Below, in pieces: positions 1 through 56,682 of a stretch of DNA of 64,000 nucleotides. The DNA lies in the NCBI GenBank assembly GCA_026874595.1, contig CM049322.1, positions 9,658,400 through 9,722,399 of the forward strand, written 5' to 3'. Both the position numbers and the translations under genes were made by a program. Within the stretch, counting starts at the first letter, position 1. Each line of letters begins with the position of its first letter. The notes under the pieces are model-generated. The model ran no database searches, was not told the origin of the DNA, and saw nothing but the letters and a program-made list of their open reading frames with translations. The stretch comes from Sipunculus nudus (Eukaryota; Annelida; Sipuncula; Golfingiida; Sipunculidae).

Positions 1-3000
1 GGACCAGAACATGGTTTATATCTGACCACTGGTCATCTGTCACATCAAGGTGACAAGCTGGTGGTCTTGTGGGGTGAGGACAGTAACATGATGATAATGG
101 GAGTGACCGTGTTTGGACATAAGAGCACTATACTGTTCCCCTCTCCCTTGTGAGATACTCTGCCAAAGCATCAGTCAGCACAGCTAGCCTATACAGCTTG
201 TGGACAGACTGTCTCTCTCAGTTGTGCAAACATACACTGATGCCTGTAGCATCATCACAGACTAGAGAGTACTCTATAGAGCTCATATCTCTGCCAGGAT
301 GAATGAATCTGAATTCTCCCAAGATCTACACCAATAATCCACCGCCTGATGTTCCACCCGTATGAAAAGTTTCATGGATATGGCTTCAGTAAATTATGTA
401 TAATTCTGCTGACAATCAAACAGACCCAGGAGAAAACATACACTCCATTCCAAAGGTAACTTATTAAGTTAATTGCACTGGGTGATAAAATAATCAGCCT
501 TAATTCATATTCACCCAAAAATTTTGAATTTTTGAGGATTATGTAAAGAGGGACCAAGAACTCAGGTTTATTTAAGCTATAATATTATTTGTAAATATTA
601 ATTGTTTTTCCATGTCCTACAAGCATGCAGTCTCCCTGTTCCCATTCTATCAGCTAGTACTACATGTGTGAGAACCACATCATTTTATTGTCTAGTACAA
701 GCATTTAATACACTTTAATGTCTGTCTCCCAGCAATAAATGACATGTCAGAACAGTTTTCCCATAAGTCACTGCAGCTAGCCAGCTGGCTGAAGCTGTCA
801 GTTAATGAAGTCTGACCGCTCAGCTTGACCAGTGGTCAGCTGGTGTGGTCAGTCATGGACTACAAAGCACTGGCTTAATGTCACCGCCCTAATAACAACT
901 CTACCAAAATACCACAGATACTTAAAGAAATTTATTGTAGCACATTCCTACCCCTCCCACTCAACTGGGTGGAGAGGTGATTATATGAAGAAAAGGTGTA
1001 GGGTACCAATCTACAGTGAATCCTGACCACATGATGACAGATATATAATCATCTACTATCATATTACAGGTCACCCTAGAGGGCAGAATGAATAACTTCC
1101 CATTACCCTAACCACAGAGATGCCTAATGCTGACTAAATAGGGCACCAACCCAAGTTACCCTGACACCATGTGCCATGACCAAAAGAGTATTACATTTTT
1201 TTATACTCATATACTTGTATTTTTTTTTAATAGCTTTGTTCCTTTTAACAAGATATGTGTTGTTAGTCTTCTTATAGAATTATGATTGAATCATCTGTGA
1301 GAATAGACCATGGCTAAGCTTGTAATATTTCAAATGCAGCTGGTAAATAAAATTTGGTATTTGTATTTTTGTATTTTATATCCTGTACGTGATATTGCTG
1401 AAAGTTTTTCTTTTCTAATAAAGGTCAAGGATTATGTTCTTAAACTATGAAACTTCTATACAAAAACCTATCAATAATGAAACATTTAAATATTATAACC
1501 CAAAAATGTTATGCAATTCATCATGCCAACTTCCAGTAAATGTATTTTGATCATCACATTAGCTAGACAGGTATCATAATTGATGTAAAAGGTGACCATC
1601 CAAAACTAAAAGTGTCAAGGCTACACTACGTCATTTTGTATTTGATTATGAAAATACATATACAATATGAAAGGAATAGGACACATAATGAGGAAAGTTG
1701 TATGATTTTTTGGAATAAATGCCTTAATGAATGGGTAGTTGAAAAAGTAGTTGAAATGGTCTCTAGCTCTACAAAATGATAGTTATCAATGTGAACTGGT
1801 GGGTAGGTACAGCAATGTGTTTGTGACACAGTGGATTGCTTCATTTTTGTGATGGTTTCACATTTGCAATATTTTCAACAAGGCCCAAGAAAATGGTATG
1901 GTTGTCAAATACCTTTTTTCAGAAACCAGTGCGGGCGGGCGATATTTTATATTTAACCTTTTTTGTATGTTTTGATAAAATGTCATATGATCAGGGAAAA
2001 GGAAGAAATACATCCATAACATCATTCATATAAGTAAATGGGAACAGATATCAGATTATAACATATTTATTATTATTATATAAATCTCATTTTATCTAAT
2101 CCCATTCCTCTAAGTATAGTTTTTTGTGAGATCATAAGAAAAACCCCCTTGGAAAATACTGAAATAATATAATGATTGTGGATTTCAACTTGGTAAGTAT
2201 GAAGCAAACCAAGGTATAAGTCATCTACTGTGCAGCAGTGAGGTAGCTGCTACCTCAACAGCTAGAGCAGTACAGCTATACCATGTCTGCTGCAGCAAGG
2301 AACAGCTCTCATACACCCAGTACATGCTTGTGAACTCCAGCTCTTTGCCATACACCTGCTGTTGCACACCCATTATATTTTTAGACTTGGTGTCAGAAGC
2401 GGGATCCTTCAGCTCTTAGCTCTCAACACCAACCAGCCAGTTTTCAGCATCAAGATATATATAACTTTTGACCTTGGTAGTGATAAGGACTGGGGGAGAG
2501 TCTTGAATTCAAGAGTTCCCAGTGTAATAGGCCTTCCTGTTATATGATCCTAACTTAGGACGGCCATCTCGTAATTTCACACTGCTTTTTGACAGAGCAT
2601 GGTGATGAAGGATTGTTTATGACTCAACTCAGTATATCACAAAAAAAGTACGCGTAGGAGTTTTTGATATGGCAATAATAATTTTACACTGATGCTTTCT
2701 GAAGTCATAAATGCCTGTGGTTGCTGGCATCAAGACAAAATACAAAGATAATGATTCAATACAGAGAAAACAAAAAGTACTCTATGCAATGGAGATGTTA
2801 TTCATGAGGAGCACAATGACAGTCATGAAGCAGACACTCCCAAGAAATAACAGCAATGGAGACCATGAGAAATCTGATGAAATGTGATATGGAACATGAT
2901 CCAAGACTGCATGTACCATGTACACTTTTTATGTAAAACATATATTAAATCTAGAATCACTGTCTTTTCTTTCATTATATTCTATAAGGTTATGGTTGAC

Positions 3001-6000
3001 AGCAGTAAAGACAACAGTATAATGGATACTTCTGCATGATAGTTTATGCTATTTTAGCCATAACATATTTCCTTTATGAAAAGACAAACAGGTATGTAAC
3101 TTATTTTGTCTTTTATTTAGTGAGTTGTATCCACATATGGTATGCCACCAACAGACATCAACACAGTTTCATCAGTAGAATAATTTGATGGAAATGTTTA
3201 CTTTTCCATACATGTTGTATGCTTGTGAACCGAGGATCTATGAAAAACATGACTGTTGCCATTGGAATGCTGGATGGCGACAAATACAAGAAAACATGGG
3301 CATAAATATGGGCAAAATGGGAGTAATAAAGGTTTGCCAAAAAAGAACTGGCGCTGTCGATATCATTTCATCTGTTATTACATGTTAACGCTGAGCTCAT
3401 GGTCATCACTCAGCAGTGCTGAATAAGTTCAAAGCACCTTCCATCGCTGGCGCTGTTAGGATAATAATAGCTGTGTGTGTTTTATGTAATGTAGGGGAGT
3501 GAGAATATATGACTGAGAAACAAGATGAGCTGAGCTGATAGGGTAGTCTTTCTGTATACACAGTGAAGTCATGCTTGACTGAATTACTATTTACTACTGA
3601 GTAAGTAACTGAAATCTGCAGCAAAGGAAATTAACATTTCATTGTGAGGAGATAATATGACCTTTCAATTTGATTAAATCTATAATAGAACTCAGAATTA
3701 ATATGAAAGTTTCACTTAACTCTGGACCAAACTGCTGAAATAATCACTGCTTCTTCACAGAAAAACAGGAGGAGGTTAATATTTTATTTATTCATTCACT
3801 TTATGAAATATTGGAGAAATAAATAGATTGAAATATATTAAATAACATTTAGGATTTGCTGAATTTGGTGGCTCATTATTCAATATACCATTAAGGTTAA
3901 TTTAAGAAAAGAAATTATTTCTTTTTTTTCAAGATTTCTCACTCTAATATTATAGAATTTCATTATTTCACATGCATGTTAGTGAACTGGATATTTCCAT
4001 ATTGGAATGTCCTTACATATATCAACATGTAACAACTGAATGTTGTTGAACACTGGTGTATAAGTCCCCTGTTATTTAACCACTTATGGTGGGAGTTGTT
4101 CTTTTACACAATGACTCAAATATCATCCCTCTTTGAAGATTTTCAAATATATGCCAAATTTTAAACATTTTACATGCTGTGTTTCATTATGACATTTAGC
4201 AAACAAGTGCCATTACACTCAGTACAAATCTATTTTGGGATTTTTTAAACCTAGCAAGACAATAAGTGAAACTTGCTTCACTTAGCAAATAAGTATTAAT
4301 GCTTTTGACAGTCACCTATTAACACACAAATCATTTTTGATAGTTAATGGAACTTAATTGGATGAAGAGAGCAACCACAGAAGAACAGCTGTCAGGTCAA
4401 TAGGTACAGCAGAACAACATCAATGACTTTATTGACAACTGTATGTTCACCACTCAGAGATGAAACGAGAATGTTCAGACTATGTGAAGTGATCATTACT
4501 TGTCAACATGACTTTACAGAAGATATGGGTATCAAGCCACTGTCTCAGAGAGAAAAGAAACAACATTTCATGTGACATGACCTGGCCTGCCAATGGGAAA
4601 TGAAAACATGCCTAAGTGACTGTAGAATTGGGAGTTGTACACAGACCTGATAGACAATTTTGAGACAAACATTATGCAGTGTAAGAGGGAAAATGAAAAG
4701 ATTCCAAATATGTGTGATTATATATATGAACAATTACAGTACTTAGTCTACAAAGAATTTTAGAAGAGGAAAAAAATATTTTACGGAGATGTTTAGGAAT
4801 TGGTGCATGGAAAAAGTTAATGAAGAATAAAATAGCCATATTTTAATTTTAAACCATGGATGAACTTACCAGTAAAATGATTTACTGGTAAGTTTGCTTC
4901 AAGGTTATTAATATTGATATTCAAAATCGGTACTATGGTAACAAGTTCCATAGTAACACATGGGTTACTATGGTTGTGTACAGTACACCTCCTGTGGCTG
5001 CATCAATACATGTCCATGTGTACTGCAGCTGTACAAACCATAGCAGCAGTACCACTGGAGTGTCCTGAAGGGCACTTAAGTCCAAATATTTAACCCTCCT
5101 CCCTCTAGTTCTAAATATTTGTGACGCCTGTGTGAGGTACGAGAGCATCATGTGCCATCCATGTTGGAATCTGACACCTACTTGTATAGTTGCAAAAACT
5201 GCTGGAATACAACATTTCCTGTGACATCCTGATGATGTGGATGGATTGAGTACCCCGGGAGCATGATTTTGGTCATTTCTTCGCCCATGCTTACTGGGAG
5301 CCAATATGTTTAAGCTCAGCTCCAGGAGTAAACTGAGAAACTTAATAAACACTGGAGCATGCTCTCATATAAACCCATTAGTGATGACCTGAATCAGTGG
5401 AATTGTATATGTCAGACCCTAGGATTATTCAAGATGTTTTCTTTACTGCTGTATTTCGAAACTGGCCATTTTTCAAGACCTGTATGCTGGTATAAGAACT
5501 TCTGCAGAGCTTCAGACAGAAATATATTTATCATTAAACTTAACATAAATTAAGATTAAATATTTAGCATTCATTATATGTCACTGGACATACATTTCTC
5601 CTGAATGAACAGTACGGATGGTTTGATACCTGACTCTGGATACTACAGAGACCAGCTGCTCTATGGATCATGTCAAACCCCACTGAGTAACCATCAAATA
5701 CATCAGTTGCTGGACTGGTTCTCAGTCTGTCAAGTATCTTTATCAGGAACTACATACAGCCCACAATGACAACTAAGACTCACTGAAGACTAGATAAAAT
5801 CCTGCCAGAGGGCTTCCTTCCTTGCGCAAAGATAAAGAGGCCAAAACACAACATGTTAGAAACACTAAACCACTGTGAGAACAGACCTAAAAAAGTGTAT
5901 ACAAAATGAGTGTGCCTACTGTGAAATTTGAAACCACTCTTAAGCCCTCATTTTTAGCTGATACATCAATCTGGCACATTTTCAAAGTGATCAGACCTAT

Positions 6001-6160
6001 ATGTGGACAATTTGTTTACCATTCACTGTGATCAGATATTTCTTTTCAGTTTTCCAAATAAACTAGATGTATTCATTATTCCTAGATTTTTACATAAGCC
6101 CTGATTGTTATTAACCTTTAAATTATACTTAAATATCTTTAGGAAAGTAAGATTTATGAA
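1..6160. other. Non-coding or unrecognised sequence left of the Ig exons
   Basis: No exon could be supported. It should hold or lead to the 3' exons of the IgSF gene, because the exon 3 donor is open and CpG depletion continues to position 1. The longest minus-strand frame (4,933-5,352, 139 codons) has no recognisable domain and ends in a repetitive CCATAGTAAC / GGTTACTATGG hairpin at about 4,947-4,972. A 14-bp perfect hairpin lies at 4,863-4,894. Confidence 0.4.
4863..4894. repeat. Perfect 14-bp hairpin carrying a splice-donor consensus on both strands
   Basis: Arms AACTTACCAGTAAA and TTTACTGGTAAGTT are perfect complements around a 4-base ATGA loop. Because of the symmetry, each strand reads CTG|GTAAGTT, a strong donor-like sequence. 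Use as a donor is not shown. Confidence 0.8.
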
Positions 6161-6408
6161 TATAACCGGACACACAAAAGCGTTCCTACTGGCCTTGATA
6201 GTGATGCTTGCTTTTTTAGTGTTATAATGGTGGCAGCGGTGGGATTTGGGTAGTCAAGGTGTTTTTTGTGGCATTATGCCCCACTTAATTCATGTGCATG
6301 ACCCCCAGATAGATTCCCACCTTCTGGGGACAGAACATCCTCAGAGAGCGTTGAATGTAACCACACACACAAAAGCATTCTTTCTGGCCTTGCTCATGAA
6401 GCTTGCTT
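6161..6408 (+). repeat. Short direct repeat (two 53-bp copies)
   Basis: Copies at 6,161-6,213 and 6,356-6,408 share the frame TAACC-CACACACAAAAGC-TTC-CTGGCCTTG-TGA-GCTTGCTT with roughly 80 percent identity by eye. The second copy leads directly into the tRNA-like segment at about 6,410-6,475, so both are probably parts of one SINE family or a duplicated SINE. Confidence 0.6.
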
Positions 6409-6409
6409 A

Positions 6410-6478
6410 TTAGAGAAGCAGTAGAACATCTGACTTGTGTGTCACAGGTGGCGGGTTCCAATCCACAGTCAGGTCTGG
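6410..6478 (+). mobile_element. tRNA-like SINE head
   Basis: Reads like a degenerate tRNA: an A-box-like AGCAGTAGAACATCTGACTT region, then the pol III B box GGGTTCCAATCC about 35 bases on. The arms do not form a complete cloverleaf, so it is a SINE relic, not a functional tRNA gene. It lies about 90 bases downstream of Ig exon 3 on the opposite strand. Confidence 0.5.
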
Positions 6479-6567
6479 TTTCTATTTTCACCAGTTACAT
6501 GAAACTTAAAAACTGGCGAATGGATTTTCAAGGCTCTGGCCTATGTACAAATAAAATATTTACTTAC

Positions 6568-6852
6568 ATGTCACACTGAAGGGAACTTGGCAATCAAGTT
6601 CTTTTGTCATGCCATCCTTTGTTACTGTGACTGCACATCGGTAAATTTCCTTGTCCATTTGAAAAGTCGCCTTCACCTCTGCTGTTTTCCTGATTGTACC
6701 AAACATGGGAATTCCTGTAGACAGGACGTCAGATGTAGAATTTTTCCACACAACTGGGGGTGAGGTACCTCCGAATTCCATTTCACACGTCAATTCAACA
6801 TCAGCTCCCTCGTGGACTGAGACACCTCCCACCGGCTCACACGTAGGTGTAC
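6568..6852 (-). CDS. IgSF gene exon 3: second Ig domain
   Basis: 285 bases, phase 1 at both ends, with acceptor atatttaacag and donor ACAT|GTAAGTA. Residues 133-227. Canonical Cys155 (VELTC), Trp168 (PVVW) and Cys205 (EIYRC) give a C2/I-type Ig domain. Two further cysteines near the domain ends (Cys137 and Cys220) could form an extra disulphide. Asn170-Ser-Thr is a possible N-glycosylation site. The exon stays open through the donor, so the protein continues in another exon not identified here. Confidence 0.9.
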
Positions 6853-6884
6853 CTGTTAAATATACATATAAACACTTAATTATA

Positions 6885-6923
<39 letters not shown>

Positions 6924-9900
6924 ATGTATATATGTATATATACACATGTGTGTATAAAACCTTGTCAGTTCTTCTTTCTCAGAGAAACACTTAACTGTAC
7001 CATCATAATAGTACTAAAATCCTCAACCAGATGTCACATCCAGTGCTATTTTCATACAACTTTCCATGGTTTAAGTTTTGAAAATAAACCTACAAACATT
7101 TTTTTTTAATAATCTTAAATGACATTTAGATAAGAATTCTTGTTAGCCCTGGACTGGTGGTTAAAGTATTATGTTGTTTGTTACTTATTTATGAAGAATA
7201 TCTAGCATGAAATGTATACACAACATGATACAAATATCTGAAATTTTTTTTTGATTTGTAAATGATACTTATTCTCATCCACATCAATATCCTCATTTGT
7301 GTGACGACCAATCAGTAATAATAGTACTCAAGTCAACTGTCTGTTAATACGTTTTCTTAAACAATCAAATGTATCTTGGACACACAAGTGAACACTCAGA
7401 CAGCCATAAAGAAGGTAAGACAGAACTAGCACATATATAAAACATTAGCTCTCCGGAACTTCATTCCAGTCTGCTAAAAAGGAAGAAATTGACAAAAGAA
7501 ATGATCGGCTCTAATTATACACAGCATTGGACTTGTGTTGCTTTGCTTGAATTGAGTAGCATATACCTCTTAGCAGAGCATTCTGTTACAATGTAGCTGA
7601 CAAAGTGCTTTTAAAAGAGAGCATCTGATCGGCTGCCTGTGGCATCATATGCATGATATATTTCAGTACACACAGTTATGATGTCTAGTTCCGATAATGA
7701 TCAATAACAAATAAATGGCAGCAATTTTAACAGAGCAAAATGTGCGATGGCTTTCCCCTGAACAAGAAGCATAACAGACAGACAAAAATTTCTTTTTTTA
7801 TGTACTCACCTATAACTTTCAACAAAGTTTTGTGCGTTTCAACTGAGTCGTCCTGGTGAGTGATAATACAATCGTATTCTCCGGCATCATCAGCAACTAA
7901 TGTAAGTATCTTCAGCGTGTAATCAGACGATACTTCAAAACCACCTTTTTGACTATGGTCAGTGTTAAAATTTCCGTTATCCCATATAGTAATGGGTTCC
8001 TTGGTCATCTTGTATACATGGTCAGCCCACCGAACTGATTTGATCGTTCCAGGTGTTGAGCTAGAACACGGTATGCTGGCGTCTTTACCCAGAAAGCCTG
8101 TGTCCTCTCGTATTTGGCCATTCTGTGCAGGGAGGGGCAGCGGCAATAAGGCAAAAACTGAAATAGAAGTAAAGAAAGTTACTACCAGTATTATATTTAT
8201 TAAAGCATCAGTAATTAATTTTATGATATATGACTTGTTACTGTATGTGTAAACAACAGATATGAATAACCTGTTAATTCATGCATCTGCAAATACAATC
8301 ACAGCCTAGTTTGATGATACATAGCTATGAAGGGTACAGGAAGTTTTCTGATGAGACAAATATGGCTTACTTTGAGTTTCGGCACTACCCAATCATGCTG
8401 TAACTGAACTGCAGCTGTGGATGATACTATCACAAAGATAACACTGTAAACAGTTGGTAAATTTATCAGTAGGCTAGCTATTCAGGACTTAACACAAATT
8501 GGAACATAAATTTGCAGATGAAGGCATATATCCCATCTCTATAGTATCCATCCTTATTTCCTATGCCCTTCATCACTCAGCTTTCAACAACATAGCCAAT
8601 GAGAGACAGACTGGTAAAGACAGAAAGTCAGTAATGCAACAATATGCAGGGAGGTTTACCAATGTGCTGAGTTGCAACATTTGTTTTTGATTTTTTTGCA
8701 CAAGATGTGTGTAGTTAGAAAGTAAACAAACATATTTGGAAGTTTATCTGCAGCAAATAAAAGTTTGTGTTACAGATCTATAAAAAAAAACATTTCTTTA
8801 TCAATATTTTCCCAGAGTTTTTGACATGGCTTATGTTTCCACTCTGACATTTGAGCAGACCATTTTATATCAGAGGAGTAAAAGAAATGATAGTGTAAAG
8901 TTCTACAGATTTTACATGATGTTCATATTTCAACAGAATGTATATAAATGTTGATAATACACATGCATATATAGTAATACATTACCTGTGTATTTAGTAT
9001 TAATATATATTTTCATTTTTTTTTTCCAATATGTCAAACAGCTTATATGCATATACATATTTTACACATTAAACTATAATTATAAACTGCATATAAATAT
9101 GTATATGTACATACATGTATAAAAGTCATGTAGATTGTGAACCAGAACATATATTTATATCCTTTTGAGTATATCAATATATGTGACAAAAAGATGCTGG
9201 TATAAAAGGATTAACATAGATATGCAAAGATATGGATCATATATTTGTACCCTACGAAGCCAACATTATGAACAAAAGTTAAATGAAATCAATTCTGGGA
9301 CAGTCAGACGATATTCAGTAAAAATTTAAAATGAAGCTCATCATAAGTATCAAATTTTTTTGTTTTTTATTTTGTTTGTGTGTTTTTTTTGTGTTTTTTT
9401 TTGGTTGGGGGGACTTGTGGTTGCACTGATAAGCTTAGGAGACAGCTAGGCCAGCTTGTATCCTGATCAATACATATCTGTACAGCTCACGCCCTAAATA
9501 CACAAGCTGTGGTAGTAACACAAGTATAGGCCTGATATTATTTTCTGACCAAGAAAAACATCTGTCTAGCAGTAACAACAGTTAAAGTTGCCCAGTATAC
9601 ATAAGAATAAAGTTCTATGTGTGCACCATAATTGTATGATACAGGGACTGAAATCAGTCACAAAAATTCAGTAGCCTTTAGGACATGTATAAACTGATTC
9701 CTGCAGAGCCACCTTGAAAACTTATTATTTTTAACTATATTTATCTATAATATACTAATGGGCTTATATTATGATTTGAGTGTACTGTCTAGAAGAATTT
9801 AGTGTATGCATGTATTATGCCATGTTACAGCGGTTGAAAACATATGTGAAAACCCTACATGAAACCATACTTTTGTACATGTTGATGTATATTATCAGAT

Positions 9901-12900
9901 TACATCTACAACTTCTATTTTAGCAAAGAAACTTTACACAGGATTTTTTTTTTGGTGCCAGTAAATTATCCTATCCCTGAGTATTATAGTCATCACTTTA
10001 TGAATACAATATTTGTATCCACTATTACAAGTATCACTGCAATTGTGTGTATCTAACTGTTGTACAGGTTCACATAGGTCAAAGGTCAAGTCAAAGGCAA
10101 TAAGAAGTATTGACATTGTGAGTCCATTGAGGTTGTGTCCATATATCAGGCTATACATAATGTACATCAAACTACCTGATGGAGGATGGACAGGCAGTTG
10201 CATGGATACCATTATAGATATTACATATTCAAGCAACAAGTCATTTGGCCTGTTTAATAATGGACCAGGATGGGAGTTCCTGCCTCTTATATGCCTAGTT
10301 TCTGGAAAATTGACTGTTTGTGTTTGAAAAGTGCATAAATGGAATGGTCATTTGTATAGTTACTGTAATGTCAACTCTTTCACCTATTAATAGCTCCAAT
10401 AGTATCCCAAAGGAAATAGCCAAGCTGTCATATAGATTATTAGATATGTCATAAACATTCGTCAAGATTGTTATATTACAGACAACACTTTTTCAGGCAC
10501 CTTTGTTAGCTCACCTTCTGTTACAAACAACTCTGTACCATGTTCTTCTCTACAACAGACACCTCTCTATTACATACACCTATCTATGACATTCACCTCT
10601 CTATAACATTCATCTCTCTATTATAGACATCCCTCTATTACAGACATCCCTCTATTACAGGCATCCCTCTAATATAGATATCCCTCTATTATAGACATCC
10701 CTCTATAACAGACACCCCTCTATTACAGGCATCCCTCTATTACAGGCATCCCTCTAATACAGACATCTCTCCATTATAGACACCTCTCTATTACAGACAC
10801 CTCCCTAATACAGACACCTCTCTATTATAGACATCCCTCTATTACAGACATCCCCCTATTACAGGCATCCCTCTATTACAAACACCTCTCAATTATAGAC
10901 ACCTCTCTATTACAAACACCTCCCTAATACAGACACCTCTCTATTATAGACATCCCTCTATTACAGACATCCCCCTATTACAGGCATCCCACTATTACAG
11001 ACACCTCTCCATTATAGACACCTCTCTATTACAGACACCTCCCTAATACAGACACCTCTCTATTATTTATACACCTCTCCATTATAGACACCTCTCCATT
11101 TATACATTCACCTCTCTAACACAAACTTTAAAATACTCCACATGATGTGTACCTAAGCCTGACAGACGAATAACAGACAAAACCCAGGTCTCTCAGTGTC
11201 CGTAATGTAGAGGTTTCACAGTATATCATATATTCATGCAGACAGTCCTGAGAGAGTAAATCACCAATGCTAGTGTTTTAATAGGTGGAGTGTGGCAATA
11301 TTGTTATGTCCCAAGAACTAGGTCAATGAAAGCAATAGAAAGATCGATAAAACATCACTAGTATTTATGTTGTGTTCTATTGCTGGCTCAGTCGACTGCG
11401 ACAGCGGTATCAGATCAAAGTGCAGGACGATTGAGCCACTGTGCCCAGCCAGGCAGACAAACAACACCACCATGTCACCGCCCCTCCCTTTGTGCATTAA
11501 ATTACCAATATCAGCCAAAATCTCAACTGTCTGTGTTAATTAAAAACAATGGGTTTATTTCATGTCTGATCACCCGTAAAAATCTGCACTGCCCCAAATT
11601 GTCTTTTTTTCAGGTCCATCAGTCTGGATATGATATCTTCATGGCTCTGAGCTAAATTTGACTGAACCAACAAATAAAACAGTTTCACAAACAGTTTTTT
11701 TTATTACCAAAATTTTCTGATATATATAACACAGTATCAACACAGCTGCTCAGGAAGCATTCTGGCAAGATATGTCATATCATTTAAAGATTGCTTTCTT
11801 TGTAATCAGAAAGCTTGGGTACTGGTTATGGTCCGGGGACACTTTTCTGTTGTCTGCCTATAGTTGTTTACCTACATCGCAAAATAAGAAGAAAATAATA
11901 TTTAGAAGCATTTTAGGTTCATCTTGAGCTGCCTTTAACAATTTAACGCGAATGCAATTCTCAGAGCTTAATTTTTACAATGACAGGGACAATGTTGTTA
12001 ATGTATTTTTAATGCAACAGTTCCAAACATAACATGCCCAATTAAATATTTTATTTCATTTATTTATAATAACAATAAGTACATCCAAACTTTTGACAGA
12101 CAACCTGTGACATCTGGGTTTTAGTATGTATGCAAAATGGAAGCCCCCATAAGCTGTTTAGAGAAATTGGGAGAAACAAAACCTGTTACCATTTGATACA
12201 GCGTACAGGTGAGACTATATTTGTTGAGGGAGTTTGTAAGGTGGGACTTGTCAGAAAACTTTAAGGCAGAATAACACTTTCTTTGGACCATGTCAAAATT
12301 CTCCAATTTTAACAGGAAGCAGACAAGGTCATCTGATTATATCAGGTCCAGAGATAAAAGGTCTGAATTCATGCTTAACTGTAAATTTGCTCCATTTTTT
12401 TGTGAATTCACCAGTCATACAAGCACACAGATGGAACCACCACCTTGAACTACTTGTGAACGTCTGATCCCTGAAGCCCCCCTTGATTGTGACATATGTC
12501 AAAACATATTATGATGTAACAGCCTCAAACTTATTCCTACCCCTTCTCTACCCCAGAGGGGGTATTCCCACCCTTCCACTACCAAACCCAACCCCCTGCT
12601 TGGGGCAGGCACACCCTTACACCTCTACAAAAGCCAGATCACTAATTTAATTCACTAAGTCAAACATACACTGCAGGAAGCACACACAGAGAAGGGGTGG
12701 GAATAAACCCAGCCCTGAGGGTGACCAGGTCACCTATAGTTCACCCCCACCCTATCATGTACCCCAGTGTCAGCCTCACGAGAAACTGGACTCCTTTATC
12801 CCCTTCGTAACTGATATTAAAGATCTGTACTTGTAATCTGACTCTACACTATATATGCTCAGCTCAAGTCAAATACTACACACTACTTGTGGTAGGACCT

Positions 12901-21900: not shown

Positions 21901-24900
21901 TAGCACATCTCCAGCGACTATTTGTAAGATTCATCTCCTTGGAATGCTGGGGGCTGATGCATCTTGGGATATCCCCTGCGTTTAATCACCATGAGATAGC
22001 GTGGAATGTCTGTTGGTATTTAGGCAGATGCTTATCTATCCCTTTAATACTAGACGGCTACTCATCAGGGTGTCTCAAAAATAAGAGTTTCCTGCCTGTT
22101 TACTTGGATAATTCATCACAGGTATCACAACTGCTCAGTCTCTTTGAAGTATATGACTTTTCTTTGGAACCTCAATTTGATTACCTATATAGGGTTATGT
22201 GAAATTGGGAAAATTATTTTGATAACATATATACCGTTCTGTTAAATTAAAAGCTTGAAAATGTATTTTTTCCAATATATTCCAAAAAGAAGTTAGGAGC
22301 TTTTTTGAAAGACTTAGAAAATTTCCTGCCTGATTTTCAAAAATAAATTCCTAAAAGAAGAAATTAATAAGGAAATGTAGATTTTTCTGTCTTATCTCTA
22401 AAGCAACAGGAAAATTCAGAGCAAATATTATGAGATATTGGAGGTTTTGTTAATACTTGAGTTAATAATAATATTTATACATGTATGTGATCTGTAAGTG
22501 CTTTACTGCTGGACAGCTCCCAAGGCTAACAGGTTAAAGGTTTGATTACTGGTATGTTATTAACTGATGTCCTAGAGTGAACCAGTATATATACACATAT
22601 AAATAAGGCATATCAGTGTTTAGAGTCAAGATAGGTAGGTCTAGTGTTTGTATATACCTCAGTTGAGGGTAAGGGGGTGAAACCCTCCCAAGTGTCCAGC
22701 ATTTAACAGAAGAAGCTCTGTTCAAGCTGGATGACCCTTAATGTCCAGTTAATGGTCAGTCTGCTTGGACAAGGGTTAACATTACCACAAACTTCACAGA
22801 GGTCAGTTGGGGTCACACCCCTTGCAAGGGCTGGAATGTTAAGACTTTACCCATTAGCTGGGGATTAGGGTGTGGAATGTTAATAAAATATGTGGGTTAG
22901 GGTGGTGATATTTTATATACAACAGGTGGTGGGGGGTCATAACTTAGTGCATGTGTCCTGCTCAATGTCATTCTGTGTAGACTATCACATTCTGACAATT
23001 TAACTCTATGAAGATATAATATTACGGTATGTCCACAAATATTAAAGAACTCACCTAAAAAGGTTTAATTCACAAACTTATCCTGAAAGGTCTCACTGAA
23101 GTAAGACAAATTGACATATTTTTAAAAACTTTTCATCAGGTAAGTTACTTTTTCCTTGGAGTCTGATTTTAATATATTTCATACCAATGGTATCTTTTCT
23201 TAATCATATGAATAATCTAAGTACCTTGATTGAATGATTCTTAAACCATATTCTAAGATAAATGTATTGTTTCAGCCCTAGTGACTATCACATCTGTATT
23301 TTGTGGGACACAAGTATTTATGCATTAGCACTGGGGTTGGCGGGGGGGGGGGGGGGGGGGGGAATACTGTACTGTAAAGTTCAGTAAATAATAGTTGTGT
23401 CTGGTCAGAGCTGGGTCAGCGGCAGAAAAAGCCTCAGAAGCTGCAGATGTATGGCATCAGTACTGGCAGCACTTGTAGATGCTGAACAGAACAGCAGGAG
23501 CTGACACTTCAGCCTCTGGGCAGTGGGGTAGATAGTTGTAGAATCATTAGTGAGCTGTGTATGATCAGTCTGTCCACAACATGGCTGACCGGTCACTACA
23601 AGCCTCCAATATCTCCTCCATTAGCTGCCCCATGAATCACCTATCCCATCTGCTGACCACTACAACCTGGTCCTTATCACTGGTCAGCTGGTCAAGTGGG
23701 GCCCCGGTCAAACTTATCCCATACCCTTGAGTCAAAAACACCCTGACCATATGTTAAATAAATGCTCCATTCATGATCAAGCTCTTCGAAAATTTATGTT
23801 GATATTGCCAAAAAATATCTCATAATCAGAAATTCAACAGAATATACCCTCAAGTTTGACCAAGTGTTGTTTATAAAGTAAATGTGTGTAAATTAAGTTT
23901 TCATCATAAGTGTTGTTGAAGCAAATGTCTGAAATAACACTTATGATATGCATTTTTTTCATGTATTTATATCAATTAATACCTACATTTTCTTTCATTT
24001 CCATAAATCCAAACATCTACCATAATTCATTTCATTGTACCCATACTTAAACTATCATAAATTTTCCCATTTTGTAATCTTAATTCAGGCAAATTTCCAT
24101 TTAGCAAATCATTGATCAGTGTACGTGTTCCCAAGTGGTAAACAAAAAGAAGCTAATGATTAAGATCCAGATTTTACAAATAAGGTCACAAAGACCTAAT
24201 TTCTTTCTATCCAGATAAGACTTAATTGTAGTACATAACAAAAGGTATGAATTTTCATATGAGGTAACATGAATCCTAGACCATGAGGTGGTCTCATGAT
24301 TTTGATTCAGACTATCCCAACCTCTCTGATATAGACAAAGATGTATATTACAGACAAATCATGTACCCCCAATGTCCAAAATATGGAGGCTCTTCAGTAT
24401 AGGTATACGTAAAGTTGAGAGTTTATATATCACTGACAATGTTAGTCTCATCTGACTTTACACTTTGCCTTCATTATCTTTCAGGTTTGTTCATTCTTGT
24501 AGCCCTAAGAAGTATAAACACAAGTAGTTATATCAGGTGCTAGAAGGTTATTCGTTCTACATTTGCCTTCCTCCTACGGCCAGTACCTGTTCACTCCTGG
24601 GATGAGAGAGTGCACCCTTGTGGCAAAGACTTTGCCTAGGAGTCTTAACACAGACAGAGGTTAGAACTGGACGGGAACCCACAACCTTGTAGTCACAAGT
24701 CCAGCGCCCTATCCATTACACCACCATGCTCCACAGTATTTGTATTAGAGTTGATGATGGTGCCACTCAACCATTGTCAGGCAACTTCTCTGTAGCCAAG
24801 TCTCAGAAATGCCCCGTTTTTTCTGTGTAGAAATGTCAGAAACAATGCCAAGTGTCCCAAGGGGGTCTTTACAGGATGAGAGAACAAATTATTTCTGACC

Positions 24901-27900
24901 TGTAAATACAGATAATTAAGAAGATGTTTAGGAAATCCACATGTCAGTGAAAAACAAAATTGATATGACAATCATTAAAAGGTTAACATTTATTTTTTAG
25001 TTCTCAAGTTAAAGTTCACAGACGGATCTACCTTTGAGATCTTAATATTGCTGTCTTGTGTATTATACCTGGATGTGACGGCTGCTGTAGAAAGAGTAAG
25101 CCACTGACAGCCAAGACAGCAGTTGTGCAGCTCTGCCAACAGGGCTGACTGCTGGTTGCTGTTCAGAAGTTAACATACAGCACAAACCAGAGACTGTTGG
25201 AAGGTATCAAGCAGCAAGCAGGGAGAAGAAATGGCTGAAAACTGCTACATCAGCACGTTTGACTGGGAAGGATGCCAGCTGTTGCCATGGTGACTGATGG
25301 TGCTTCTTGATTTGCACATGAGCAGATGAGAAGCCTTCATGAAGCTACCTTCTGTCAGAGATTGTGACTGATGCCAGGTGCTGTAAAATTTCACTCTGAC
25401 AACAAGCACTGCATCTTCATAGAAACAAGACTGTTGGACAATCAGCTCACAAACACTGTGGTTTTTGTAGGACATTAAAATCTATGCATTCTGGCTTTAA
25501 ATATAGCACTTCAATATGATATGTCAGTCCTTACTTTATCTAAAAGTAATCTGCTCATTGGTTAAACAGCTCAGTGGTATGATTTAATGGTCCCACTGCT
25601 GTTAAACTGTTGGTCTTTAGATCAATGATACCCTATAAACCATGTAGGTTTTCCATCTGTCCATGAGCCACATGATTTTGTATCCATTTCATCAAGAACT
25701 GTTTGAGATGCGGTCCTGAAACTTTTTATTTGTTGAACAAAACAGTTGTCAAACTAATGGGCTAGAATATTACAGAGCCCTTTAGATCTGTTTGTACAAG
25801 CAACAGGCCTTTGTGAAAAAGTAGCTTAAATGTTAGTGATTGAAACACCAAAGTACATTGTGACAATTATGTATACTGTTATCAAAATAGTAGGCTGATC
25901 AGGACATCATAATTATATTTTAAGGCCAATGAGGATTAGAATTAAGGGACAAATATAGATACAAGATAAAAGAAAACTGATTTATCTTAACATCAAGCAA
26001 AGTGATTCTTCAAGTTTAATATACATATATGTGGACGTTTTTCAACTTCCCATATAATCCATGTGATTTCTTTAATTTATATGTTGAATGTATCAGGCTT
26101 GATTTCCATGGTGTAATATAATATTTTTCTCTATTCAAACATGAAGTTTCACTCTTCCACCCTTTACCTTATTATCTTAATCAGTCTGCAACTGCATGAC
26201 AGGTTTCCTGCTAAACTTGACACGTTCACTTGAAAACTACTCTTAGAGGTGCTACAGTGACCCAGATCTAGTGAGATTAAACAGGTCAGAAACAGTTCTC
26301 TGTACGCAAGGACTACAACTAAATCAATCACATGTAACACAAGGCACACTCCTATATATAAGGTCAAAGGTCAATTGGGTCAGCCAGGTGAACAAATACT
26401 CACACCTACGTAGTTAATGTAGGTCAACATGGAGATGCGATCACTCTACTTTATATATGTCATGTTGACGATATACTTTTATATACATGTAATACATGAA
26501 TACGTACTTATCTTTACTGTCTTACTTTTAAATTATGTATAAAAAAACATCTCTTTCTTATTACATTTCCCCATAGCATGCTTATTAACCATCTGGTTTC
26601 AGAGTATTGCAGTCTTTCCTGTTTAATATTGATAAGTTTTTTTTATTTTTGTTGCTTGGGGGAACTTCCTCCATTTTTTAATGAGAACTATGGATAGCTT
26701 AACTAAATATGTATATCTGCAGAATTCCATTCTGGTTTTAGACTACCTAATGGGGCAGTAGCAAACGCTTCCTCTCACTTTATCTTCCTGATGTTGACCA
26801 GGCCTGGTGACTACAGCACCTTTTTTCAGTGAGCCTCTGACTTGGTTCAAGGGGAGGACCTTCTGTTCCATAGTTAAATGACCACAAGGCTAATAAATGT
26901 AAAAATAAAGTGAAAGCTGATAGGTATTAATTTATTTGTTTACTAGTCCTTACAGTAATTGGTTCAGACATAAATGGGAGAAACAATATGTTGTGTCTGG
27001 AAGAAACCTTTAATTATTGGTGAACTTCTGGTTCCTGAGTCCATAGTATACTGGATAGGGCAGGTCCTTACCATAATGCCTGCCATACATATGAATCCAA
27101 GTATAAAAAGCTTGGTGATATTTGTCTCACATTCTTTTACATGCATCTTAATGTCTGGTTTAGGGAGAGGTATTTGCTCTCAATAAAGTACTCCTTGTCT
27201 CAATGCAGAATTGCATGCCAATTTTTGTTATAAATCATGATTCAAGTAATTTTTATGCCATGTTGTAATTTTATGCCATGTTGTGTGGAATTTTCCAAGA
27301 ATACATTTACAATGGCTATAAATATATATGTTGGCAGCACATCAAGGATAAAACCACAATTTGGCTTCAAAACTAATTCATAATCATGAAATATGTGCCT
27401 GGCCTATATATGGAATGCAGTCAATTCATGACTAAGCATATAATGTGCAATATACAGGTACCTAAGTTCCTTTCTGGCATGTCACACTTAGATGTAATCG
27501 GGCAAATACAGCCTTACTAGTACAGCACAACTGGGTGAGGTATTGAAAGTTCTAGGACATATCAAAGAATAAATAATTCATAAATTCTTCACACATTCCT
27601 ATTTATAGGTACTAAAGTCACAAGGCCTGGAGAAATCATTTTTTTTTTCTTTGTTTGAATATATCAATATATGAGTAATACCAACAGTTAGCTAAAGCTA
27701 AAATTTTAAGCTTGACCAGTTCACTTAACACTTAAAACTTTATACATTTATACAATGATACAATATGCTATAAATGATAGTAATTAGTACTATATTTCAG
27801 TTAATGAGCAAGTAATGTTTTATATAGCCAGATTTTATTAACATAAAATGAAAGAGGATCCAAAGTTTTCCATGTACATATGTGTTCTACTTTTATACAT

Positions 27901-30900
27901 TAACTTACTGATCATTTGTATGATATAACTCCTCGCAGCTGTTTTCATGAATGTGTGTATGTTCCCACTACAGATGCTATATGTCACACCAAGTGACATT
28001 TCGCCCTGTCGTCACATTAATCAACAAACACAACTATAAAACCCACTTGGGACCAGGGTGTCCATTTGGATGGTGTGCTGAATAGTAAATATGCACACAC
28101 CATGCAATCACTGACCACAGGGGTGTCCATTACTGACCAGTGACCACTGTGGAGTGACCACTAGTTTTGATTAATTGATAGTGTTAGCAATGAACTAAGT
28201 GGGTATCCAGTGATCACAGTCCTCACATCACCATCTGAAACTGGAGTTACCATGGTAACTCATGCATTACCATCACATCTGAATAGATAAGCTGTGTTTG
28301 CCTTTCATCCAGAGCATTAAGCCAAATGGATTCAAAGGTAACATTCAATTAAGGTCAACAATTCTTAAGTTTCTGTGTAAACCAAGTATGTATATGACTT
28401 ACATATAACTATAAATAAACAGGCCTCCAATTCCATTCATCAACCTCAGGAATTCTTAATCAGCATTGTCTCAGAAACAGATAAAAAATCTGACTCCTAA
28501 ATTCCATTCACAATCCTCAAGAACCAAATACTTTTACAAAATAAATAATTTCAAGTAAAAGCTTATTAAGCTCTTTTTCCCTTTCAATATGAAGGGTTGC
28601 CTCAACTGGAATATAAATATCATGAAAGGAATTTTATTAACATTTTAGGTATTTATTTTAGTTCAATATATATCTGAAAATTTGGCACTTCAAAATCTTG
28701 AATTGTATTTCAAAAGTTCCACTAGTGTCCACTGAAGCAGGTACACGTGATGACATCATTATATATAGGTCACAGTGACCTATAAATCAGATCAGCCAGA
28801 GCTATAAGCACTACACAAGAGTGCTTGGACAGAATACCAGGACATATTCAAGTGTCCCACAGAAAGCTACATTCATTCAATGATACTCAAGTACTGAGTA
28901 CCATGGGTAACCCAGTAGGATTTTGACACCAGCAAAGATGGTACATGAACATTACACTGTATATAACATGTTAATATAATGTAATTTTCACGAAACCAAA
29001 ATTTAGAGAACTGACATGGAACTACCTTTCACAAGCATGATATTTTCATGTATCCCCATTCAGGTTAAAATAAACCCTGATAAAAAAAATGATATATACG
29101 GCACATATACAGGCGGCAATTTAGCAACAATTATCACATACTTAAGAGAGGAAAATCATTAAGGAAAGTGACATAATATTATCCATTATGATGGCTACAG
29201 CTTAAGTACTATAGGAAACCAACAGTAACCCCTAACAGCGAAGTCCAAAGTTACAACACTCTAAACTGGTTTATCCAAATTTGAATGGTTTCCACAAAAC
29301 CACATCTCAGCAAATACAATCCTGATTGGTCCGTGACCTACTGAGCAAATTAAGTGGTATAGGAATCGAGAATATTGAATTTTAGCTTGGCCATATGATA
29401 GCTACAGAACACACTCCAATTCCTAGAGTCGGCAGCCTAATCCCCATTGATATTGGCAGCCAAACATTTGGAATCAATGAATATTCAATACAAGGCAAGC
29501 ATAGCTCGATTGTTTTGTATTGTGGTGAGGACAGCGACACGGGGAGGGTGAAGTGGTCACTGGTGGGCATGTGCTACTCTTGTGTTCAAATGTTGGCTCG
29601 GCAATCACCGGCCTGTGTTCCTTGTAATTACTGCCGAGTAGTTTAACTACTCAGCTCTAACACTGATCTCTGGTGGTACTCAATAAGCCGCTGTCAGAGA
29701 CAAACTACTGACATGTCAACCAGGGATAACATGTTAGTGAAACTTGATAGAAAGGGAAACACTATAACTGTTCTGAGAGGTTTTAATATATCAACAATAA
29801 CACAATGAACTTTTAAAATATTGTTTAACTTCAAACATAAATCAATTACCCTCCATCCCTCCCTCTTTCTATCTCTCTCATTAATTTTACTGGTTGCATA
29901 TAAACATCCCTATCTATTGCCCACAGCCAAGGAGAAATTATTAGATTTTTTTTTTAGAAATTTATTTTTTTTTGTTAATATTGTCTCTCTCTTAATCTCT
30001 TTAAACTGTTATAATAAGGATTTTAGAATGTTCATATTTGCCTTTCTCTCTATTTCTCAAAAGAAAAGGATAAATAAAAGATGTATATATATATGGTGGA
30101 TACTGGTAATTTATCATATCATATAAGCATCACAATGAATAGATAAATCCACAAGTAAGAAATGTGTTCCAGTGAAGCTTTAAAAGCTATATATCTTTGA
30201 TAAGAGCCTTTTCTGTTAAATTTATCAAGTACTTTCAATAAAAGATCCTGGATATTGAATGGCTATTTGACTGATTAAACATTACTAATTTTATGTAAGT
30301 TTAAGCAAGAATCTCACATAAGAGACTGGTAATAATACTATAGGCACAGTGCCTCAAAGTCAGGTAGTGTTCTATCACTAGCTATAGGCTTTATATTATG
30401 TCATGTAATACTTCAGCTGGCTTTTATTGTTCCTTTCTTATAATAGGTATGGTGAGCTCCCTACATATGCAAAAGCCGAAGAGTAAATCTTTCAAGTGTA
30501 AAGTCAAGTCCGGGAGGCTCATTAATTCCTTTACACCCCCAGCTCAAGTACCTGGACCCCTGCCTGTGTAATGTTTTCCTGATAGCAGTGATTATTCTTG
30601 CCACCCTACCCTACGACACCCCCTCGAAACCAAGGCGCCAATAGAATCATAGGACAATTGACTGTACTTGTTGTAGGTTAGTGCCCGGAAGTACCACTAG
30701 TATGACAAAGATTTTCTTGGTGTACTGGACGTGATTCGGCACACTGATTATGTCTTATTACCTGTGTACCTTAGATTCCATGGCTTTGTTCCTGCTGATC
30801 ACAGAATCATGTTACTTAATACCTGTAATACCATATGCGTGTAGAATGGTACTCATTGGTAGTTGTTATGTGTATATGTGTATATGTGTATCTGTGGTTG

Positions 30901-30997
30901 ATGAGAACCTTTATTTGTATATCTGAAGTTGTATAGGAAAGGAAACTTATATCTGTGCCCTTGTCTTTATTTCCTTGCTTTCACTCAAGACCTATTG

Positions 30998-31091
<94 letters not shown>

Positions 31092-32946
31092 GTTACTATG
31101 CTTTATTTGTCATTGTAAAATATATTCTTCTTCCCCCCTATTCCCTCAAAAACTCTGTATGTTTAGAATGTTTGTTATACATGTGATTGTTTTTATTTTT
31201 CTATCCCTCCCTCTCTCTTTCTCTCTCTCTCTCATTTTTTTCAATCTACAGTGGTAAAATACAATTATTACAGGAGTTAAGACAACATGAAGGGAAAAAT
31301 ATCTACAGTGCTACATACTGTGGTTTCACAGGTCGCAGTAAATTATATGGAGCTTTATACCACTGTCTTTGAAACTATTATAAAGCCTGGTATTTGAAAC
31401 TAGCACAACATCATTAGTGTATAATATTAAGTTCTCTGTGTTTCATACTACTGTACACACAGTCATGTATTGGGACTTCAGAGGCCAACTAAAGACATAT
31501 AACTCAAAGCCAGTGGAATAAAGTGCTAATCATTTATATATTAAGGGGTTATATGGGGTGTTTGATACAGAGTTTATTATGATTTCAAAGGCTTGTATAT
31601 GGCCTGAGTCATGCCAAGCTGGTTGTAAGGGGACAGGGTATAGGAAAGATACCCCCTTCTAGAGTGTTATAAGTATCCATGCTGAGATTGGCAATACCAC
31701 TAATGAACCACAAAGGCTTGAATTAGAGTGTGTACTCAGAGAGAGTAAACTTGTTAATTTGGTAACTATGTAATCCCTGACTGTGAATTAATTAGCCCCA
31801 CTGGGAAATCTTAAATTATGCTATTCAACAGCATGATAATTGGGTTAGAAACTGCATGTATTGTCTAAGCTGTCCCTAAATTTCTGTAATACACTGCACT
31901 TAAATGATCAGACTTTTTTTAATTTGGTAAATAATTATCTTGTAGTTGTACCTGATTATGTATACTAATGTACATAAGGATTCCTATATTATACTTTACT
32001 AATAAAGAGAACTTTGGTATGGTGTATTAGAAAGCCATTCAATTTCCAATAATGAAAAATTTACTTTTATTATTGTTGAAATATCCTATACAAAGGTTGT
32101 ATTTTTATTCTTTCCATGAAATGTAACTGGATTGATTTGCTTGTGGTGAGCAATAAACTGACTAAAGTTTATGACAAAAAGATAGCTATGTCATTACTCA
32201 CATAACAAATTACAAACATTTGAAGTTACACTGACATACAATGTTGCTGTTTTCCATACAATTTTTTCTCTTTTTATAATTCAAGTTCATATGTAATATA
32301 AAATATTTCTTAATACAATGGCAAAGTTAAACTTTATGCAATAAATATCTGCCACATGTATGTGCATTGACTTAATGCATCACACACCTCATAAACTTGA
32401 TAAATTGGTACAGGTACGTGATATATCATAATTTAAAGTGCATCCACGGCAGAATCGACACATCTGAACCTGTGAGTTGTTAATATCAAGGTATCAATCA
32501 CAGGTTTTTGTTATGAAACATGCACGACAGCTGTTGTGGTTGATTTCCGTGTCGCTAGTCGCGAACTACGGGCAAATATTATTGAATCTAAACTCGACCT
32601 CGCGTGTGTAAGGTTATCATGAAAGGCCCGTTTATATTGTAACTACATCGATTTGATCTATTTTCTGGCCTACGTCGCGAGCTAAATAGCTTTCACGGCT
32701 AGTCAAGGGCAACTTTAGTGTACATATACAATAGCAAGCTATCCTGAGTCGCGGTGGTCTTGTATATTGTGTTAAACGGTGCGGCACGAGAGGGGAGAAC
32801 CGGGGTCCATATATATCATTGAATACATAGGTACTCTACATAACACACCTTAAATACTAAAGCGTTTTCTTATCAATCAATACATTAACTGACTTACCTA
32901 GGACTAGAGCTGTCCCGCTGCATGAGTAAATTCCACATATAGCCAT
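6568..32946 (-). CDS. Immunoglobulin-superfamily protein gene, 5' part (signal peptide + 2 Ig domains), incomplete at 3' end
   Basis: Partial minus-strand gene; exons at 32,898-32,946, 7,810-8,157 and 6,568-6,852. Joined, they give 227 residues plus one base with no stop: a signal peptide (residues 1 to about 27), a V-type Ig domain (about 30-133) and a second Ig domain (about 134-227). All junctions are phase 1, the usual symmetry of shuffled extracellular Ig exons. The start is supported by a good context (AAAAATGG) and by an in-frame TAA nine codons upstream (32,971-32,973). Introns are about 24.7 kb and 957 bp. The last donor is open, so more domains, a membrane segment or a tail must follow at lower coordinates; none was recognised in 1-6,560. 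The product should be a cell-surface or secreted recognition or adhesion protein. Its ligand and subfamily (junctional, nectin-like, or the Ig part of an Ig-lectin protein) cannot be told from this part. Confidence 0.85.
6885..6923. repeat. (ATT)n microsatellite in IgSF intron 2
   Basis: About 12 uninterrupted ATT units, followed by TATATG-type low-complexity sequence. It lies 30 bases from the exon 3 acceptor side of intron 2. Confidence 0.9.
7810..8157 (-). CDS. IgSF gene exon 2: end of signal peptide and V-type Ig domain
   Basis: 348 bases, phase 1 at both ends, with acceptor tttacttctatttcag and donor ATAG|GTGAGT. Residues 17-132 of the joined protein. The Ig fold marks are all present: Cys47 (ASIPC), Trp60 (SVRW), and the late D-x-G-x-Y-x-C motif ADDAGEYDC ending at Cys113, about 66 residues after the first Cys as in V or I-set domains. 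It ends KTLLKVI, the G-strand style end of a V domain. It has no J-segment-like or recombination-signal features. Confidence 0.92.
10076..10088 (+). promoter_or_regulatory. Perfect DR1 nuclear-receptor half-site pair
   Basis: AGGTCA-A-AGGTCA, the consensus direct repeat spaced by one base that binds RXR- or HNF4-type receptors. Another near half-site follows. Located in intron 1 of the IgSF gene; occupancy is not known. Confidence 0.45.
10540..11125. repeat. 17-bp minisatellite with a 119-bp higher-order repeat
   Basis: Dozens of tandem units of the type CATCCCTCTATTACAGA, 17 bases each, with variants (CACCTCTCTATTATAGA and others). The variant CTCCCTAATACAG starts at 10,801, 10,920 and 11,039: exactly 119 bases (7 x 17) apart each time. 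The right half is therefore built from seven-unit blocks. The left end (10,500-10,620) is more degenerate. Confidence 0.92.
16073..16113. repeat. Short tandem duplication
   Basis: Two adjacent near-identical copies of TAACATTTAGATTAATCATAA, within intron 1. A local replication slip; no function suggested. Confidence 0.8.
23342..23362 (+). repeat. Poly-G tract of 21
   Basis: Twenty-one consecutive G in otherwise AT-rich intron sequence. It can form G-quadruplex structures, and its assembled length is doubtful. Confidence 0.9.
24555..24735 (-). mobile_element. tRNA-derived SINE (Meta/V-type core)
   Basis: Reads on the minus strand. A tRNA-like head includes GGTGTAATGGATAGGGCGCT, then the B box GTGGGTTCCCGTCC. 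A body follows with GGCAAAGTCTTTGCC and CATCCCAGGAGTGAA, then GGTACTGGCCGTAGGAGG. The body resembles the conserved central segment of Meta/V-type SINEs known from molluscs and other animals (recognition from memory). The ends are estimated to within about 10 bases. Confidence 0.75.
26361..26373 (+). promoter_or_regulatory. Second perfect DR1 nuclear-receptor site
   Basis: Again AGGTCA-A-AGGTCA, followed five bases later by the related half-site GGGTCA. The flanks differ from those of the copy at 10,076, so the two are not simply copies of one repeat. Confidence 0.45.
28767..28781. promoter_or_regulatory. Perfect palindromic oestrogen-response-type element
   Basis: AGGTCACAGTGACCT: two AGGTCA half-sites inverted with a 3-base spacer, the classic consensus. 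The symmetry extends to TATA on both sides. About 15 bases upstream is TGATGACATCA, an AP-1/CRE-like palindrome. Located in intron 1; activity is unknown. Confidence 0.5.
29382..29646. other. Unexplained CpG-retaining patch open on both strands
   Basis: Plus-strand frame 29,395-29,646 (83 codons) and minus-strand frame 29,382-29,570 (62 codons) both lie in a stretch with about nine CpG in 300 bp, unlike the surrounding intron. No domain is recognised. It could be an unlisted exon, an alternative first exon, an enhancer or a recent insertion. Confidence 0.3.
31005..31091. repeat. (CT)n / (AT)n compound microsatellite
   Basis: About 45 bases of CT repeats followed by about 40 bases of AT repeats, with another CT-rich tract at 31,205-31,233. 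Short frames reading through it are low-complexity artefacts. Confidence 0.9.
32898..32946 (-). CDS. IgSF gene exon 1: start codon and signal-peptide start
   Basis: 49 coding bases: 16 codons plus one base, ending at a strong donor (CTAG|GTAAGTC). The residues begin MAICGIYSCSGTALVL. Exon 2 completes the split valine codon and continues VFALLPLPLPAQ, giving a continuous hydrophobic leader with likely cleavage just after the proline/leucine-rich stretch. The clean join between sites 24.7 kb apart, in the correct phase, is the main evidence for this exon. Confidence 0.85.
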
Positions 32947-33170
32947 TTTTCTGATCAACCTGAACCTTAATTAGACAGCTATCTCCCGTACGTCTAGACC
33001 CAACTGGAGAGCACAACCATACACCTCTGAGAGCTTCAGCGTATTGAAGTCACGTGACACTACAGCAGGTGCCCGCTATGGGACCAAGGCGGCGCCACCG
33101 ACAGGAATGCGTGGAATTACGGGGCGCGTCTCAACATAGCAATGGCTCCTTAGACGTCCACCAACAACCT
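32947..33170 (-). promoter_or_regulatory. IgSF gene 5' leader and promoter region
   Basis: Sequence directly upstream of the start codon, rich in CpG and without an evident TATA box near the start. A perfect palindromic E-box GTCACGTGAC (33,049-33,058) is the site type bound by USF, Myc/Max or TFE/MITF bHLH-zipper factors. The in-frame stop at 32,971-32,973 marks the leader as untranslated. The transcription start cannot be fixed from sequence alone. Confidence 0.5.
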
Positions 33171-33840: not shown

Positions 33841-33851
33841 TGTCAATATAA

Positions 33852-34032
33852 GGGGGCTCGGACCCCCCCCCCCCGCACCCCTTTATCAACCAGCGCAACC
33901 TTTTCTAATGGTTTCAGACATATTTTAATGCGGGCTGGACCTCCTTTTAAGAACCGGGGGACATTTTTTAGGATTAGTCATTAGGCTCCCGTGTTGCCCC
34001 CCTCCTTTTCCTCAGTCTTGGCTGCGCCCCTG
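33852..34032. mobile_element. Probable MITE relic with poly-C tract
   Basis: Contains GGGGGCTCGGACC followed by 12 C (33,863-33,874) and ends in GGCTGCGCCCCTG, whose complement CAGGGGCGCAGCC resembles the ends of the 35,055 element. The opposite end is not a clear inverted match, so boundaries are tentative. Confidence 0.4.
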
Positions 34033-56646: not shown

Positions 56647-56682
56647 CACCTTCAGTGAACCGAATTTTCTGTACATAACTAG

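Follow-up and report, generated by a model that had tools for sequence, protein, structure and literature searches.

Why CpG dinucleotides should be scarce in one half of a 64,000-nucleotide stretch of the Sipunculus nudus genome and frequent in the other is the question raised by this locus (assembly GCA_026874595.1, contig CM049322.1; C17:9658400-9722399, hereafter the window), where the change falls just inside the 5′ end of a minus-strand gene of the immunoglobulin superfamily (IgSF). A first-pass annotation of the window had claimed a step in the CpG observed/expected ratio (o/e) near 32.4 kb, about 0.5 kb inside this gene, and had attributed the depletion to germ-line methylation. We found that the step is real and that the depleted stretch is very probably the body of one long IgSF gene whose CpGs have long been methylated in the germ line, on an evolutionary time scale; what we infer is the methylation itself, its germ-line timing, its absence from the promoter and where exactly the gene ends on the 3′ side.

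CpG o/e was 0.21 at positions 1-32,400 and 0.86 at positions 32,401-64,000, and a one-change-point model on C positions placed the single change at 32,417. The log-likelihood gain of this step was 259.8, compared with a maximum of 9.2 in 200 permutations, and recursive segmentation (gain threshold 8) detected no second step in the window. At the edge, the list of CpG positions contains no CpG start from 31,335 to 32,416, and CpG o/e in 500-bp bins rises from 0.29 (bin at 32,000) to 1.15 (bin at 32,500). The step thus lies where the first-pass annotation had put it, and its hand counts of CpG per 600 bp (3, 4, 7, 0, 1, 14 and 15) were all seven exact on recount; the end of the depletion, given there as 33,170, has to be moved to 32,417. 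Because GpC o/e (0.98 left and 1.07 right of the step) and G+C content (0.354 and 0.363) are nearly equal across the step, base composition is not the cause of the CpG loss, and we rejected an explanation of that kind.

The depletion reaches far beyond the window. When the analysis was extended by 120 kb on the left and 80 kb on the right, giving a 264-kb stretch that contains no N letters (coordinates left of the window are negative), segmentation detected only two steps, at -105,907 and 32,417. The depleted domain is therefore a single block of 138.3 kb with a CpG o/e of 0.24, flanked by sequence at 0.80 and 0.83. Its two edges differ in shape: the right edge is sharp, whereas the left one (best change-point -105,907, 2-unit interval -106,995 to -105,837) is graded over about 5 kb in 500-bp bins, CpG o/e being 0.12-0.28 at -104.0 to -103.0 kb, 0.57 at -106.5 kb, 0.48 at -107.0 kb and 0.65-1.24 from -112.5 to -107.5 kb.

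What lies under this block is, as far as the exon structure can be read, one gene (Table 1). Exon 1 and exon 2, on either side of the step, join in phase 1 to encode MAICGIYSCSGTALVLVFALLPLPLPA, by eye a standard signal peptide, and exon 1 was the sole first-exon candidate on the minus strand between 8.2 and 64 kb to pass a filter for a start codon, an open frame, a strong donor and a matching phase (the thresholds, a donor of 5.5 bits and a length of 14-45 residues, were chosen by us). The claimed gene start near the step thus holds, the start codon lying 0.53 kb right of it. The very abruptness of the step could suggest an assembly join of two unrelated sequences, an idea to which we give practically no credence: the exons on the two sides splice in phase into one signal peptide, the G+C content is similar, no N occurs in the 264 kb, and the profile matches the known gene-body profile.

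The exons from the second to the transmembrane one were scored on their splice sites and coding potential in a scan whose parameters were generic, not trained on this genome. Its five best candidates between -108 and 33 kb, which are, in descending order, exons 2, 3 and 4, the transmembrane exon and the stalk-like exon at -73,894, are all on the minus strand and all in phase 1-1. The IgSF protein matches Pfam Ig_3 at 3.5e-9, with the best stretch within exon 3; this match and that to V-set (Table 1) pass the Pfam cut-off, and exon 4 scanned alone stays below it (Ig_2, E 0.012). The predicted product has the make-up of a type I membrane protein, with a signal peptide, three Ig-like domains and one transmembrane segment. 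In the PDB it matches Ig-domain proteins of a general kind (LRIG1, NCAM, DSCAM, neurofascin and Robo), too weakly for a family name, and a search of the whole genome (1.43 Gb in 153 contigs) gave three matches at E <= 0.01 among 18 candidates scored, all of them the gene's own Ig exons; we thus found no close paralogues, several of which would be expected of an expanded immune Ig family. The span from the start codon is 108.6 kb to the end of the transmembrane exon and 140.8 kb, against 138.3 kb for the depleted domain, to the candidate stop at -107,863, so that the gene is at least 108.6 kb and probably about 141 kb long. The exon that carries this stop, near where the depletion ends on the left, is the probable last exon. 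The earlier claim that the unit runs past position 1 is thereby borne out by exons of the same strand and phase far to the left, and it was the 138-kb footprint, outlining one gene, that led to exons lying 42 to 108 kb outside the window.

Could the depletion instead be the methylated body of a different, plus-strand gene that ends near 32 kb and is merely overlapped by the IgSF gene? In the sea squirt one methylated domain can span two convergent genes (PMC3827831), and among the 49 non-overlapping exon candidates between -108 and 33 kb, 32 are on the minus strand and 17 on the plus strand, some of the latter with moderate scores. The best exons are nevertheless all on the minus strand, a further scan gave 31 minus-strand and 7 plus-strand candidates (overlapping alternatives counted), and the three plus-strand open reading frames (ORFs) that were scanned had no Pfam match. 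A plus-strand gene would also predict the reverse order of the edges, whereas the sharp edge lies at the 5′ end of the IgSF gene and the graded one at its 3′ end. We therefore consider a plus-strand gene very improbable.

The dinucleotides that changed are those expected of decaying methylated CpG. TpG and CpA both rise from 1.15 right of the step to 1.32 left of it (TpG 1.33, CpA 1.32), GpC, GpT and ApC differ by less than 0.1, and the change in CpG is the largest by far. When we simulated decay by converting 78% of the right-side CpGs, half to TpG and half to CpA, the outcome was 0.22 for CpG and 1.37 for CA and TG, compared with 0.21, 1.32 and 1.33 on the left side. The loss of CpG together with the gain of TpG and CpA fits deamination of 5-methylcytosine.

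In mammals, transcribed chromatin recruits DNA methyltransferase through trimethylation of histone H3 at lysine 36 (H3K36me3). By our preferred explanation, methyltransferases would act on the transcribed body of the IgSF gene and be kept off its promoter and first exon; methylated C would then deaminate to T, turning CpG into TpG and CpA over a stretch that begins about 0.5 kb into the gene and reaches close to its 3′ end, and the neighbouring lectin genes and their intergenic spaces would have kept their CpG by being unmethylated in the germ line. An exon of DNMT1 at C5:43964554 (best PDB match 1.4e-33, for the one exon) indicates that the genome encodes a DNA methyltransferase. The domain appears to coincide with the transcription unit and to spare the promoter and first exon, the 3′ end of the gene being a predicted one. 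Methylation in the oyster rises sharply after the transcription start, stays level through the gene and falls slowly after its end (PMC4378273); since a sharp 5′ edge with a graded 3′ edge is this same profile, we counted the shape of the domain for gene-body methylation.

The same contrast is found elsewhere in the genome. Ten C-type lectin loci, chosen among the 14 best of 151 matches, were all high in CpG (o/e 0.54-1.01), and nine TCP-1 chaperonin loci on large contigs, taken from 63 matches after exclusion of those on small contigs and of two long matches in a single frame (on C3 and C11), were all depleted (0.10-0.39; one-sided Mann-Whitney p 1.4e-4, nine versus ten); every one of these pieces holds some exon plus flank. 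Among 20 arbitrary 2-kb samples, 12 had a CpG o/e of 0.46 or less and eight of 0.62 or more, one sample counted as high being half N; eight further loci (0.69-1.00) were excluded from this count because the pattern used to fetch them contains CpG. In these samples the genome is a mosaic of low- and normal-CpG compartments. The CpG-normal state claimed for the lectin genes holds in the window as well as at the ten loci elsewhere, and the germ-line methylation origin proposed in the first-pass annotation gains support, read from CpG loss, both from this lectin/chaperonin contrast and from the coincidence of the domain with the gene.

Several observations weigh against this reading. ApG and CpT are 1.05 and 1.03 left of the step and 0.89 and 0.86 right of it, a shift about equal to that of TpG and CpA, and the simulated decay moves them to just 0.96 and 0.93, less than half of the observed shift. 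A shift that deamination explains so incompletely might suggest that the depletion comes from old, repeat-rich or low-recombination sequence and not from methylation; we hold this to be extremely unlikely: the CpG change predominates, with TpG and CpA gained as deamination predicts and GpC, GpT and ApC hardly altered, and the sampled chaperonin and lectin loci show the same low/high split elsewhere in the genome. Strand skews, which we examined as a pointer to the direction of transcription, gave a weak signal: the GC skew is -0.024 (z -2.5) left and -0.012 (z -1.3) right of the step, and the TG-CA asymmetry has a z of -2.0 and -1.6, respectively. Between -75,681 and -107,759 the tail exons form no complete chain, the link from phase 1 to phase 0 being missing, which leaves room for a different unit in the last 30 kb. 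On that view the depletion would cover at least two methylated genes placed end to end, the IgSF gene ending soon after the transmembrane exon (-75.7 kb) and a second gene filling -76 to -106 kb. We regard this arrangement as unlikely, if worth keeping in mind: the incomplete chain of cytoplasmic tail exons speaks for it, whereas segmentation gave two outer steps only and no internal CpG-normal gap, the transmembrane exon ends at a donor site and not at a stop, and just beyond the domain there is a same-strand candidate for the last exon. Nor does a single methylated IgSF gene agree with the oyster in every respect, since the oyster's cell-adhesion genes, taken as a class, score high in CpG o/e and are predicted to be hypo-methylated (PMC2996979) and this gene is strongly depleted, and since its exons are its least depleted part, though exons are reported to be the most methylated part of oyster genes (PMC4378273).

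The exons deserve a closer look. The three Ig exons keep a CpG o/e of 0.53 or more (Table 1) and the assembled coding sequence 0.56, compared with 0.23 in the introns; two short stalk exons hold no CpG. Exons 2-8 together contain 34 CpGs, a number reached by one of 5,000 size-matched random intron sets (mean 8.2), and six chaperonin exons, when pooled, showed a milder excess (0.37 versus 0.24), one of the six being below its surroundings. For 31 of the 35 coding CpGs of the IgSF gene one of the two possible decays is silent; because the other one alters the protein, selection alone halves the paths that are open, and it may explain much of the CpG retention in these exons. A bolder possibility, which we think unlikely, is a partial exemption: in a heavily methylated gene body, coding exons would be shielded to some degree from the loss of CpG, silent changes included. 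In the oyster, higher methylation is reported for exons than for introns (30% versus 18% of CpGs, PMC4060414; see also PMC4378273), so that such an exemption would have to come from repair or selection and not from methylation. If it were true, the customary CpG surveys of transcripts would wrongly class long genes for receptors and adhesion proteins as unmethylated, and surveys based on introns would redraw the set of germ-line methylated genes. In any case the introns of the IgSF gene give a much stronger signal than its exons, which bears on transcript-based surveys. In one such survey, oyster transcripts are bimodal in CpG o/e, with component means of 0.40 and 0.70, low values being found in housekeeping genes and high values in immune genes (PMC2996979). 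The sampled chaperonins and lectins fall in line with this, whereas the IgSF coding sequence would seem intermediate there despite its depleted introns.

Judged from CpG loss, the pattern is an unexceptional case of mosaic gene-body methylation, well documented in the oyster and the sea squirt; the mosaic type is described also for a snail and other invertebrates (PMC8549274). In the Pacific oyster methylated genes are longer (PMC4378273) and 74% of the methylated CpGs of sperm lie in exons and introns (PMC4060414). The long gene with its sharp 5′ and gradual 3′ profile is alike in both animals (PMC4378273), whereas the single 138-kb domain was deduced here from CpG loss and the oyster methylation was measured. 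In Ciona sperm the methylated domains are sharp-bounded, central over genes and depleted at gene ends, and in Ciona intestinalis they are all-or-none, with boundaries untied to the first methionine or the stop codon (PMC3827831). The IgSF domain is likewise sharp-bounded and centred on a gene whose ends are spared; it differs in that its second edge is graded, and it lies on a gene far longer than those of Ciona. The locus would thus be a clean case of a germ-line methylation record that is readable in genome sequence alone.

Table 1 Features of the locus. Positions are counted from the first letter of the window; strand is given where it applies.
Feature	Position	Strand	Remarks
CpG-depleted domain, in-window part	1..32416		o/e 0.21
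Sharp depletion edge at gene 5′ end	32349..32447		2-log-likelihood interval; best point 32,417, 481 bp into intron 1
CpG-normal compartment	32417..64000		o/e 0.86 in window, continues to at least 144,000
Whole CpG-depleted domain	-105,907..32,416 (C17:9552492-9690815)		By segmentation
IgSF exon 1, coding part	32898..32946	-	Start codon and first half of predicted signal peptide; donor GTAAGT, phase 1
Intron 1, 24.7 kb	8158..32897	-	CpG-normal in first 481 bp, depleted beyond
IgSF exon 2, signal peptide end and V-set Ig domain	7810..8157	-	Phase 1-1; Pfam V-set 2.1e-10; CpG o/e 0.78
IgSF exon 3, second Ig domain	6568..6852	-	Phase 1-1; CpG o/e 0.53
Intron 3, in-window part	1..6567	-	Gene continues left of window
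IgSF exon 4, third Ig-like domain	-42,397..-42,651	-	Exon scan, phase 1-1; CpG o/e 0.54
Stalk-like exon	-70,227..-70,280	-	Exon scan
Stalk-like exon	-71,305..-71,364	-	Exon scan
Stalk-like exon	-73,894..-73,938	-	Exon scan, phase 1-1
Predicted transmembrane exon	-75,559..-75,681	-	Exon scan, phase 1-1; segment read by eye; ends at donor, not stop
Candidate last exon	-107,759..-107,863	-	Acceptor opens 34-residue frame to stop; phase 0
C-type lectin ORF 1	43813..44319	-	Pfam Lectin_C 2e-10; CpG o/e 0.78 in 43,600-44,400
C-type lectin ORF 2, tandem duplicate of ORF 1	50211..50699	-	Pfam Lectin_C 8.3e-12; CpG o/e 0.72 in 49,999-50,799
Third lectin match, far side of IgSF gene	-114,302..-113,970 (C17:9544097-9544429)	+	CpG o/e 0.81

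Within the depleted part of the window, a hydrophobic minus-strand frame at 2,785-2,928 was tried as the last exon and dropped, as it had no Pfam match and stronger in-phase exons lie further left. Seven other ORFs of the depleted region matched no Pfam family, and Rfam and tRNA scans of the window gave nothing. In intron 1, at 10547-11100, a 17-bp unit is repeated about 32 times in an array.

The depleted IgSF gene sits inside a lectin neighbourhood (Table 1). The tandem duplication of the lectin genes (43065-46639 and 49543-54254) takes in non-coding flanks, and the copies stand about 6.1-6.5 kb apart in one part but 7.6 kb apart in the other, which implies that they differ by an indel of about 1.4 kb. 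Among the matches listed, frames of about 360-380 amino acids that match the C-type lectin domain with near-identical scores occur on each of contigs C1-C17, at six or more places as tandem pairs or triplets spaced by about 1.4 kb; from the one place read (C9:29180400-29183600), they look like a multi-copy, perhaps mobile, element. Nine full-length GroEL-type frames, each of 547 amino acids and with the same score, lie on C61, C62, C66, C72, C73, C75, C89 and C99; these eight small contigs look bacterial, and the assembly seems to include a symbiont or contaminant. C66 also carries a 375-amino-acid frame that matches the cytosine-5 methylase family.

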